64,000 nt of DNA from Aquirufa aurantiipilula (GTDB lineage: Bacteria > Bacteroidota > Bacteroidia > Cytophagales > Spirosomataceae), in the NCBI RefSeq assembly GCF_019923745.1, contig NZ_JAANOG010000001.1, positions 248,001 through 312,000 on the forward strand. The letters run 5' to 3'. Below are positions 2,887-58,130 of the stretch, in pieces. How positions within the stretch are numbered: the first letter of the stretch is position 1; each line of letters begins with the position of its first letter. The notes under the pieces were generated by a model. It worked only from the letters and a program-made list of their open reading frames with translations, ran no database searches and was not told where the DNA came from. The translations under genes and the position numbers were made by a program.

Positions 2887-3755
2887 TTCCATTTAATCGA
2901 AATCTGCTCTGGTTTTTTATGTTTCCATCTTCGATGAGACCATAAATATTGTTCAGGAAATTTGATGATTGATTTTTCTAATCTTCTGGCAAAGCGCTCA
3001 ATGATTTCTCCATTGGGTAAATTTTCAAAACTTGGTTCAGCCAAAAGTTCATATGTCATGGAATAATATCCTCTTTTTTTGCGAATTAATTCAGCAAAAA
3101 CTACGGGATATTGATATTCTCTTGCAAAGCGTTCCATGCCAGTAAAAAAGGCTGTATCTTGATTCAAAAAGCTAGTCCAATAGGCCGATTCCGGCTTTTG
3201 AGGTGCTTGGTCAGCTGCTAAACAAATGACTCTGGGTATCTTTTTTCGATCTCTGGTTAAAATAACAGATTCACGTTTTTCCATTAAAACGATATTCCCA
3301 AATTTTTGACGAACTTGTTTACTAAACTCGTTGAAAGCAGGATTATTTAATTTTTGATAGACGATATCATTGGTGTTTTTAGTTAAAGCTAAGCGGTGAA
3401 TCGCCCATTCCCAATTGCCTTGATGACCTGCTACTAAAATTACCGGTATTCCTTGGTTCAGGTAGTTTTGGACAATTTCAGGATTATTTAATTCAACGCG
3501 CTTTAGTACTTGACTTTCCGTTAATGAAACACCTTTAAAAAATTCCAATAATTGGTCAGTCAAATAACCATAAAATTGAAAGGCGATTTGATTGATTTCT
3601 TTTACTGATTTTTCAGGGAAGGAGCGACTTAAATTTTCCAGAATAACCTTTTTACGGTAAGAAATTAAACCATAAAATATCCATTTTAACGTATTAGCTA
3701 ATCCGTAAAGGATAAATAGGGGAAATCGACCTAGCAGCTTGAAGAAAAACATCAT
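2883..3755 (-). CDS. LpxL/HtrB-type lipid A acyltransferase
   Basis: A 290-aa member of the LpxL/LpxM/HtrB acyltransferase family, which adds secondary acyl chains to lipid A at the inner membrane. There is one hydrophobic N-terminal segment (about residues 3-30). The HX4E catalytic motif is seen as H111-QGNW-E116, followed by the downstream Asp-Gln-Ala-Pro motif (ADQAPQKPESA) typical of the family. Two Met codons stand together at the start and either could be used. Related proteins acylate other lipids, so the acceptor is inferred; lpxB elsewhere in the window supports lipid A. Confidence 0.82.
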   Translation of the reverse strand: MMFFFKLLGRFPLFILYGLANTLKWIFYGLISYRKKVILENLSRSFPEKSVKEINQIAFQFYGYLTDQLLEFFKGVSLTESQVLKRVELNNPEIVQNYLNQGIPVILVAGHQGNWEWAIHRLALTKNTNDIVYQKLNNPAFNEFSKQVRQKFGNIVLMEKRESVILTRDRKKIPRVICLAADQAPQKPESAYWTSFLNQDTAFFTGMERFAREYQYPVVFAELIRKKRGYYSMTYELLAEPSFENLPNGEIIERFARRLEKSIIKFPEQYLWSHRRWKHKKPEQISIKWN

Positions 3756-10893: not shown

Positions 10894-11255
10894 AGAGAAA
10901 ATAAATCGTCTTATCGCTTTTTTAAAGAGGAAAGTCCGAACAACAAAGAGCATCGTGCTTCCTAACGGGAAGGGAGATTATTCATAATCTTACAGATAGT
11001 GCCGCAGAAAATTACCGCCTTTCGGGGTAAGGGTGAAAAGGCGAGGTAAGAGCTCACCGCTATTTTGGTGACAAAATAGGCATAGGTAAACCTCACGAGT
11101 TGCAAGATCAAATAGGCTGGCTGTCGAAAGACAAAAGGGTTGCTCGTCCGATGTCAGCGGGTAGATTGCTAGAGGTGAACAGTGATGTTCATCCAAGATA
11201 AATGATAAGAAGGCTTTATAGCTTACAGAATTCGGCTTATAGATTTATTTTCTCT
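10894..11255 (+). ncRNA. rnpB: RNase P RNA (bacterial type A)
   Basis: This is the catalytic RNA that trims tRNA 5' leaders. The universally conserved 5' block GAGGAAAGTCCGAAC is at 10927-10941, and the matching 3' block ACAGAATTCGGCTTAT at 11225-11240. The ends are set by a perfect 14-bp P1 helix pairing 10894-10907 with 11242-11255. The about 362-nt length is normal for type A. No open frame in it is credible as protein. It lies between the DUF4403 gene and rpsP with its own promoter. Confidence 0.96.
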
Positions 11256-57344: not shown

Positions 57345-57387
57345 AACATTACACTTCATCAACAAACTAAAAACCAAATAATAAAAA

Positions 57388-57533
57388 TGCTGTAGGAGAA
57401 GGATTCGAACCTCCAAGGTGCGGTTAGCCATATCGCAGAACTGATTTAGTGGTCAACCCATTACGCTACGTTTATCCCGAACTCACCACCCCCGAGACAG
57501 GAGGGCACGTCTGCCAATTTCATCACCCTACAG
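57388..57533 (-). ncRNA. Atypical tRNA-like RNA, 146 nt, with very long variable region
   Basis: On the minus strand the ends form a 7-bp acceptor helix (TGTAGGG with TCCTACA, extended by one C-G pair) and a good T arm (GGAGG-TTCGAAT-CCTTC). After the acceptor come T8-G9 and a leucine-like D arm (TGATGAAATTGGCAGAC), then a stem CCCTC/GGGGG with loop CTGTCTC; the nominal anticodon would be GTC, but position 37 is a pyrimidine, unusual for a working tRNA. The region between this stem and the T arm is about 70 nt, closed by GGTG/CACC and containing a GGTT.../...AACC hairpin. CCA is not encoded. A near-ideal promoter upstream and a terminator downstream show that it is expressed. I do not recognise an existing RNA family. 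Confidence 0.72.
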
Positions 57534-57665: not shown

Positions 57666-58130
57666 ATGGATAAAAAATTTGATCTAGACCCTTTAGACTA
57701 TAAAATTTTAGAAATTTTAGTGAGTGATTCCAATCTGCCATATACTGAAATTGGACAACGTTTAGATGTTTCAGGGGGTACAGTGCATGTACGAATGAAA
57801 AAAATGGAGGCTTTGGGCATAGTTAAAGGGGCACAACTTTTAATAGATTATTCCAAAATCGGTTGGGATATAACCGCTTTTCTAGGCATCTATTTAGACA
57901 AAAGCTCTTTGTATGAAGACGTCGCCAAACAATTGGAGAAAATACCAGAAGTGGTCAATATTCATTATACGACAGGTATTTACTCTATTTTTGCTAAAAT
58001 TATTTGTCGAGATACTCAACATTTACGAGAAGTTCTCCACGATAAAATTCAACGTGTTACCGGCATACAACGTACCGAAACATTTATCTCATTGGAAGAG
58101 AGTTTAATTAGAAATACACCTTTATTTTGA
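57666..58130 (+). CDS. Lrp/AsnC family transcriptional regulator
   Basis: A 154-aa regulator with an N-terminal helix-turn-helix (about 8-60: LDPLDYKILEILVSDS, then YTEIGQRLDVSGGTVHVRMKKM cut as LDVSGGTVHVRMK) and a C-terminal RAM/ligand-binding domain (about 70-150). Family members respond to amino acids. The target is unknown; sufB follows by 81 nt and the divergent tRNA-like RNA is upstream. Whether it controls either is open. Confidence 0.9.
   Translation: MDKKFDLDPLDYKILEILVSDSNLPYTEIGQRLDVSGGTVHVRMKKMEALGIVKGAQLLIDYSKIGWDITAFLGIYLDKSSLYEDVAKQLEKIPEVVNIHYTTGIYSIFAKIICRDTQHLREVLHDKIQRVTGIQRTETFISLEESLIRNTPLF

Follow-up and report, generated by a model that had tools for sequence, protein, structure and literature searches.

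What function could be served by a gene whose product is shaped like a tRNA, carries an exceptionally long variable region and presents an anticodon loop that seems unsuited to decoding? Such a gene lies in the window analyzed here, the whole 64,000-nt stretch of Aquirufa aurantiipilula DNA (contig NZ_JAANOG010000001.1, positions 248,001 to 312,000). The original prediction, made from the letters alone, described a dedicated tRNA-like RNA at 57533 to 57388 of the minus strand that might be a non-decoding regulator, an aminoacyl donor or a tRNA with an insertion in its variable arm. Position and strand were reproduced in this study, which delimits a 144-nt RNA on the minus strand (57532-57389), running from U1 to C74 and comprising all four tRNA helices together with the long variable arm. 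Its match to the family covariance model reached 127.7 bits, a score obtained with a model that contains the close relative L002. It is near certain that this is a real, conserved RNA gene, and conservation together with covariation supports its description as a dedicated tRNA-like RNA. It represents a widespread RNA family missed by both ARAGORN and Rfam.

All parts of the RNA described below lie on the minus strand. The acceptor stem is formed by the 5' strand TGTAGGG (57526 to 57532) and the 3' strand TCCTACA (57391 to 57397), with U1-A72 and G2-C71 each present in 97 of 97 distinct copies. The acceptor helix of the earlier description was confirmed as seven covarying base pairs, starting from T57532-A57391 (U1-A72), whereas its eighth pair, C57533-G57390, is not conserved: opposite the G, relatives have C, T or A and in a single case G. 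The 3' end consists of G73 and an encoded C74 (57389 to 57390); because the CAGC end motif was used to cut the copies, the constancy of G73-C74 partly reflects how they were delimited. A C after position 73 is, by eye, likewise encoded in 30 of the 30 listed tRNAs of the same genome. The D arm (57507 to 57523) proved in the alignment to be of the leucine type, with GG at positions 18-19, and the anticodon arm CCCTC-CTGTCTC-GGGGG (57489 to 57505, covariation helix 3) retains its 5-bp stem and the loop CTGTCTC (57494 to 57500), both as originally described. The T arm GGAGG-TTCGAAT-CCTTC (57398 to 57414), with the TTCGAAT loop noted before, is supported by alignment and covariation; its stem is bulged in 20/97 copies, and the two unpaired nucleotides before it are a leucine-like trait.

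Across the family, the total length of the RNA ranges from 110 to 195 nt. The variable arm consists of a 4-bp stem, a bulge of 3-4 nt, a 3-bp stem, an internal loop of the form GAUAAA/CUAA and a variable upper part. Its closing V1 stem (covariation helix 4) pairs GGTG (57484 to 57487) with CACC (57417 to 57420) and covaries, in agreement with the closure proposed earlier, and the 3-bp helix (covariation helix 5) pairs CGG (57477 to 57479) with CCG (57421 to 57423). The internal loop has GATAAA on its 5' side (57471 to 57476; some form near the start of the insert in 93/97 copies) and CTAA on its 3' side (57424 to 57427; 95/97 copies). Above it, a helix of variable length (57428 to 57470) carries the element GGGTTGACCAC, with GGNNGACCAC found in 51/97 copies. 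The hairpin GGTTgaCCA/TGGctAACC that had been drawn within this region was abandoned, since TGGCTAACC holds the 3' sides of the internal loop (GAUAAA/CUAA) and of the covarying 3-bp helix (CGG/CCG).

To evaluate this structure, 107 distinct sequences were fitted to a covariance model built from 13 copies chosen out of 65 distinct ones. In this alignment, 96.5% of cells were paired, 21 of 29 pairs changed on both sides, and such both-side changes amounted to 462 cells compared with 98 in shuffles; sliding the pairing partner removed most of the signal. All five structure measures lay beyond each of 500 shuffles. The earlier alignment of the 13 copies, made from sequence only and serving as the basis of the drawn structure, gave the same picture, with four of the five measures beyond all 500 shuffles and the count of pair types reached by 4/500. 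Covariation across relatives, which the original prediction had named as possible support for the extra region, is found there in the V1 stem and the 3-bp helix. Two helices are weaker, namely the 3-bp helix, paired in 89.3% of cells, and the base of the upper helix, where 72.0% of cells pair in the two modelled pairs. Single-sequence folding energy gave no signal (z 0.13); the evidence for the structure comes from conservation and covariation.

Standard annotation overlooks this gene. ARAGORN made no call for the window RNA and overlapped none of 299 family hits in the fetched loci, yet it reported 157 other genes in those same loci; the 299 hits include repeats of one gene, with 272 distinct starts among 300 when the window is counted. 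Rfam 15 returned nothing over the gathering threshold at 57389-57532, with no RF00005 match there even at E up to 10, and likewise no match at the copies in L272, L222, L063 and L039. Assignment to a known family, which would have spoken against the original proposal, was thus not obtained, and literature searches, limited by licence, found no description of this RNA family. A search of the own genome with the RNA gave a single match (E 0.001). Like tmRNA, the window RNA has tRNA-like ends, but it keeps its D and anticodon arms and matches no tmRNA family in Rfam, so tmRNA was dropped, as anticipated. An intron in the anticodon loop was also discarded, as the loop is intact and the insert sits in the variable region. 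Elsewhere in the window, a class A RNase P RNA with an AU-rich outer helix occupies 10898-11255 of the plus strand.

The family extends far beyond one species, spanning genus, family, order and phylum. A covariance search of 392 sampled genomes of the phylum Bacteroidota identified the RNA in 42 at 88 bits or more, members being read from the result table at E below 1e-20: 14 of 15 in the own order, 25 of 90 in the rest of the class, and 3 of 287 elsewhere, all of one family. Scores were bimodal, with members at or above 88 bits and the next matches at or below 66 bits; the four next matches read by eye comprised three tRNA-Leu genes and a short variant in genome G071. At closer range, a DNA search covering 99 genomes, namely the own genome and 98 relatives, revealed close copies across the genus and homologues across the family and order, with tandem arrangements among them. 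Elsewhere too, copies may stand in tandem; L035 has six and L214 five. Combined with a model search of 29 doubtful genomes, the DNA search gave carriers among 30/37 congeners, 19/23 other family members and 25/38 genomes in other families of the order, one of the 25 having its copy in two pieces at contig ends. The seven congeners without the RNA are 62-87% complete, and among the 13 of 38 genomes lacking it in other families of the order, one has the short variant. That variant (L272, 1501-1577, minus strand; genome G071) has no variable arm and, by eye, keeps U1-A72, U35, C36, U37, C38 and G73; its loop reads CTATCTC, with A34, and ARAGORN names it tRNA-Asp (atc). All counts treat G071 as a non-carrier.

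A pattern scan of public genomes matched at least 120 stretches, and among the matches listed are Chitinophaga, Ferruginibacter, Saprospiraceae, Spirosoma, Dyadobacter, Algoriphagus, Cyclobacterium and an Ignavibacteriales bin. Phages also carry the RNA, at 17 loci comprising 16 viral contigs from the pattern scan and one 636-kb uncultured phage record. At 15/17 of these loci the fetched stretch includes a further tRNA gene, and several of them contain a large tRNA array. The phage DNA search returned one long match, to the 636-kb record, and nine short matches in the T-arm region, and a plasmid search gave no match. A further oversized (150 nt) leucine-type tRNA-like gene, at L224 7682-7831 (minus strand) in a phage tRNA array, scored 47.8 bits and falls outside the family.

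The gene is flanked by signals that would define a single transcript. The predicted promoter TTTTG-N19-TAATTTTG (57599-57568, minus strand), which we take to be of the Bacteroidota type, and the predicted terminator (57344-57316, minus strand) were both found again in the sequence, in agreement with the original prediction. Across copies, TANNTTTG occurs at most 130 nt upstream in 32/51, compared with 4.5 expected from mononucleotide shuffles. Between the RNA and the terminator lies a conserved 27-nt 3' trailer element, GGTTTTTAGTTTGTTGATGAAGTGTAA (57349 to 57375, minus strand), which recurs once in each of eight relatives searched with 0-2 mismatches. The own genome holds a second GGTTTTTAGTTTGTTGATGAAGTGTAA copy (L295, about 3248-3312), consisting of a 23-nt core with its own terminator-like hairpin and situated far from any tRNA-like RNA found. 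The element may be a trailer-derived small RNA and is treated here as a separate small-RNA-like element. In addition, some copies of the own family, such as L033 and L038, show by eye an inverted repeat, GTCAAGTT...AATTTGAC, between promoter and RNA, for which a leader hairpin or an operator are candidate readings.

Another set of observations concerns the anticodon loop. As the pattern-scan loci, both public and viral, were selected with GTCTC fixed, loop counts use only the 97 distinct copies from similarity searches with the whole RNA, loop included. Over the analysis as a whole, one hit cut by a contig end, 8/218 hits without the expected end and 1/250 distinct copies that could not be parsed were dropped. 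Position 37 is a pyrimidine in 97/97 copies (U in 95, C in 2, a purine in none), consistent with the earlier remark that this loop does not suit normal decoding, and U33 is present in 79/97 and lost in 18/97, the window copy having both U33 and U37. The RNA is thus very probably non-decoding, as one of the original proposals held. In contrast to these losses, U35, C36 and C38 are each kept in 97/97 copies and G34 in 92/97. The own genome also encodes a normal tRNA-Asp with the loop CTGTCAC and G1-C72, and the window RNA is therefore not a missing Asp decoder.

The kept positions are those expected of a substrate for AspRS. According to PMC9976931, G73, G34, U35, C36 and C38 are strong Asp determinants and G2-C71 is a minor one; the same paper attributes to U1-A72 the acceptance of Asp-tRNA-Asn as a substrate by GatCAB, and names G1-C72 together with U20a as the antideterminants that protect Asp-tRNA-Asp. 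The window RNA carries the five strong determinants and has U1-A72, in 97/97 copies, in place of the G1-C72 of tRNA-Asp; by simple counting, a U at 20a occurs in 0/249 parsed copies, as would suit a GatCAB substrate. Judged from these positions, the RNA appears to combine marks for Asp charging with a mark for amidation, with decoding features lost. Some observations count against Asp charging: G34 is absent in 5/97 copies and in L272, and G1-C72, which E. coli AspRS also uses to place the 3' end according to PMC9976931, is missing, raising the doubt that U1-A72 may weaken AspRS recognition. A further point against is the long variable arm, which could clash with AspRS, given that class II synthetases dock on the side of the tRNA where the variable loop lies.

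If the RNA is a substrate for amidation, GatCAB should accompany it. Its presence in carriers was judged from GatB. A first set of 40 carriers and 40 non-carriers, hand-chosen for spread, was examined for GatB, AsnB, GlnRS, AsnRS and the AsnC orthologue, and a second set of 70 genomes took in the other 19 carriers of the phylum search together with the 51 non-carriers of the class that the first set had not included. Stand-alone GatB was present in 59/59 tested carriers (40/40 in the first set and 19/19 in the second), compared with 0/51 non-carriers in the second set. In the class outside the own order, it was found in 25/25 carriers versus 1/65 non-carriers, the single exception (G139) lacking GlnRS, and the association held within families (f23, 8/8 carriers versus 0/3 non-carriers; f24, 12/12 versus 0/2). 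In genomes possessing both GlnRS and AsnRS, GatCAB should not be needed for translation; among them, stand-alone GatB occurs in 27/27 carriers versus 4/24 non-carriers (Fisher 1.4e-10; this test and the other co-occurrence counts are uncorrected for phylogeny). Conversely, the RNA is present in 27/31 such genomes with stand-alone GatB and in 0/20 without it. The four counterexamples (G046, G112, G188 and G360) have GlnRS, AsnRS and GatB, with no RNA copy found. As expected, GatB occurs in each of the 29 genomes that lack GlnRS. Stand-alone GatB was also seen in 20/40 first-set non-carriers, 16 of which have no GlnRS. Every one of the 40 first-set carriers possesses AsnRS. AsnB exceeded the cut-off in 35/40 carriers versus 29/40 non-carriers and was rejected as a discriminator; its frequency in carriers also implies that free Asn can often be made otherwise.

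Over-long GatB frames, ranging from 876 aa (cut by a contig end) to 1127 aa, were found only in non-carriers (6/6 among 150 genomes: G050, G055 and G057 in the first set, G249, G296 and G473 in the second), and in these six genomes GatB takes no other form. In each of the four that were scanned (G057, G055, G296 and G249), the frame joins GatB to an entire bacterial AspRS in a protein of about 1100 aa. The fusion is thus proven at L288, L289, L347 and L348, while L290 ends inside the gene and the call at L349 relies on length and motif. Beside the fusion of G057 lies a GatA-like gene scoring 434 bits, below the cut-off of 481. These findings suggest that the RNA and the GatB-AspRS fusion are two solutions to one task. 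They also provide a directly testable answer to the puzzle of why some bacteria with GlnRS and AsnRS retain GatCAB, since in the sampled Bacteroidota stand-alone GatB there goes with the RNA. The Bdellovibrio work (PMC4206432) reports 68 genera that keep GatCAB despite GlnRS and AsnRS. It also lists 18 genera, including some Bacteroidetes, that possess AsnRS, GlnRS and GatCAB but lack an Asn synthetase, a setting in which such a carrier would be useful.

A second genetic association concerns the neighbouring gene. Divergent from the RNA lies a gene for an AsnC-like regulator (57666 to 58130, plus strand), whose product has E. coli AsnC (2cg4) as its best solved relative at E 7.5e-31, the next structure standing at 1.1e-20. 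The NCBIfam AsnC model is also the best family (E 6e-46), but its 156 bits fall below the cut-off of 227. The AsnC-like gene is upstream and divergent in 105/161 cellular loci, rising to 110/161 after a translated search; the 161 include one locus twice (L056 and L105) and a pair, L053 and L150, that judging by length may stem from a single contig. It was not found beside the RNA in 51/161 loci, 12 of which offer less than 600 nt upstream. An AsnC orthologue of at least 52% identity, a threshold set after the list was seen, occurs in 39/40 carriers versus 3/40 non-carriers, one of the three being G071 with its short variant; a fourth non-carrier, G062, has an orthologue at 48%. The orthologue is also kept in G075 and G100 despite absence of the RNA. 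Beyond the regulator, a SufB-like gene (named by eye) is found in 30 loci, and some carriers have the regulator at a site away from the RNA, indicating that the AsnC-like regulon may be wider. The neighbours of unlinked AsnC genes were read in 15 genomes, of which G062, G075 and G100 lack the RNA and G071 has just its short variant. Clear SufB- and SufC-like genes were seen in one of the 15, G093, and no asparagine gene was recognised by eye beside the unlinked regulator.

Based on these observations, we propose that the RNA is a dedicated non-decoding tRNA paralogue that would be charged with aspartate by AspRS, a step suggested by its retention of G73, G2-C71, G34, U35, C36 and C38. GatCAB would then turn Asp-RNA into Asn-RNA, as suggested by U1-A72 in place of G1-C72. 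The RNA would be kept off the ribosome by U37, a dispensable U33, the long variable arm and, in some members, the bulged T stem; we infer that decoding had to go because, with its GUC anticodon, the RNA would misread Asp codons once it carried Asn. The Asn would be released or passed on, the RNA acting as a carrier for tRNA-dependent asparagine production, and the divergently transcribed AsnC-like regulator would control it. To our knowledge, no release step for Asn is known. On the identity positions, charging with Asp is likely and amidation by GatCAB fairly likely; the two combined outside translation, leaving the fate of Asn aside, form a reading for and against which we see equal weight. 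That the RNA serves asparagine supply is a plausible yet tentative suggestion. More tentatively still, it may represent an RNA coenzyme for amino-acid biosynthesis, in which Asn is made from Asp on a non-decoding RNA by AspRS and GatCAB under an AsnC-type switch, phages carry their own copies in tRNA arrays, and lineages losing the RNA may fuse GatB to AspRS. If the charging is true, this would be a tRNA for metabolism, combining the identity rules of two enzymes with decoding removed.

The same positions could also be read differently. An Asp-charged RNA, amidated or not, might act as an aminoacyl donor, with a transferase moving the amino acid to lipid, peptidoglycan or protein; the Asp determinants and U1-A72 support this earlier suggestion as a possibility, the tandem copies fit a bulk donor, and the T-stem bulge could fit weak EF-Tu binding. 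Nevertheless, no transferase family was recognised by eye among the 30 largest neighbour groups, and a donor by itself predicts neither the GatB link nor the AsnC neighbour, which leaves this reading unlikely. Somewhat more doubtful is a riboregulator or scaffold that would bind AspRS, GatCAB or the two together, adjusting or assembling them without being turned over as a substrate, and for which the GatB-AspRS fusion can substitute. Such a role would fit the restriction of over-long GatB frames to non-carriers and the conserved internal loop of the variable arm, and PMC9976931 describes yeast AspRS binding an anticodon mimic in its own mRNA. The complete acceptor end with C74 and the lineage without a variable arm (L272) argue instead that the 3' end matters.

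Charging by enzymes other than AspRS, or a place in ordinary translation, accounts for less of the evidence. SerRS uses a long variable arm and G73 (PMC7609411), and a seryl-accepting tRNA-like RNA could be recruited in this way. This reading is very improbable and was dropped as the main one. SerRS is not known to read the anticodon, so the fixation of U35, C36 and C38 would be left unexplained; L272 has no such arm, and the unpaired pair of nucleotides ahead of the T stem is of the leucine type. A tRNA-Asp isoacceptor that decodes in spite of an oversized variable arm would be in keeping with a loop that differs from CTGTCAC at one place and with phage copies near tRNA genes, but the invariant pyrimidine 37, the loss of U33 in part of the family and the normal tRNA-Asp of the genome speak against it; a decaying pseudogene, the other form of this reading, is ruled out by the strong covariation, and we hold the two together to be hardly credible. 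The plain description as a tRNA with an insertion leaves the Asp identity set, U1-A72, the AsnC-like neighbour and the GatB link unexplained. The proposed Asp-charged, GatCAB-amidated carrier would bring these features together.

Comparison with known systems places the RNA between several precedents. Its body resembles tRNA-Leu, sharing the class II architecture and D arm; it differs in having G73 for A73, U1-A72 for G1-C72, a new anticodon loop and the length range of its family. The Bacillus cereus pseudo-tRNA tRNAOther (PMC3399842) is likewise a tRNA-like RNA described as non-translational; going by these descriptions, tRNAOther flanks a genomic island of B. cereus, whereas the window RNA spans several orders and is linked to GatB and AsnC. 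With the GatCAB route of tRNA-Asn and tRNA-Gln, it shares the U1-A72 mark, Asp-type charging elements and GatB in every tested carrier. Unlike the tRNAs of that route, it is a separate RNA with a long variable arm and an Asp-type anticodon unsuited to decoding, in genomes that, throughout the first set of carriers, possess AsnRS. Some staphylococcal tRNA-Gly serve the cell wall and, as proposed here, exemplify a dedicated tRNA outside translation, although amino acid, structure and genetic context differ from those of the window RNA. Finally, the arrangement of the locus recalls asnC-asnA of E. coli, where AsnC is an asparagine-responsive activator of asnA. In both cases an AsnC-type gene is divergent from its partner, across a gap of 151 bp there and 133 bp here, the partner being asnA (asparagine synthetase A) in E. 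coli and the RNA gene in the window.
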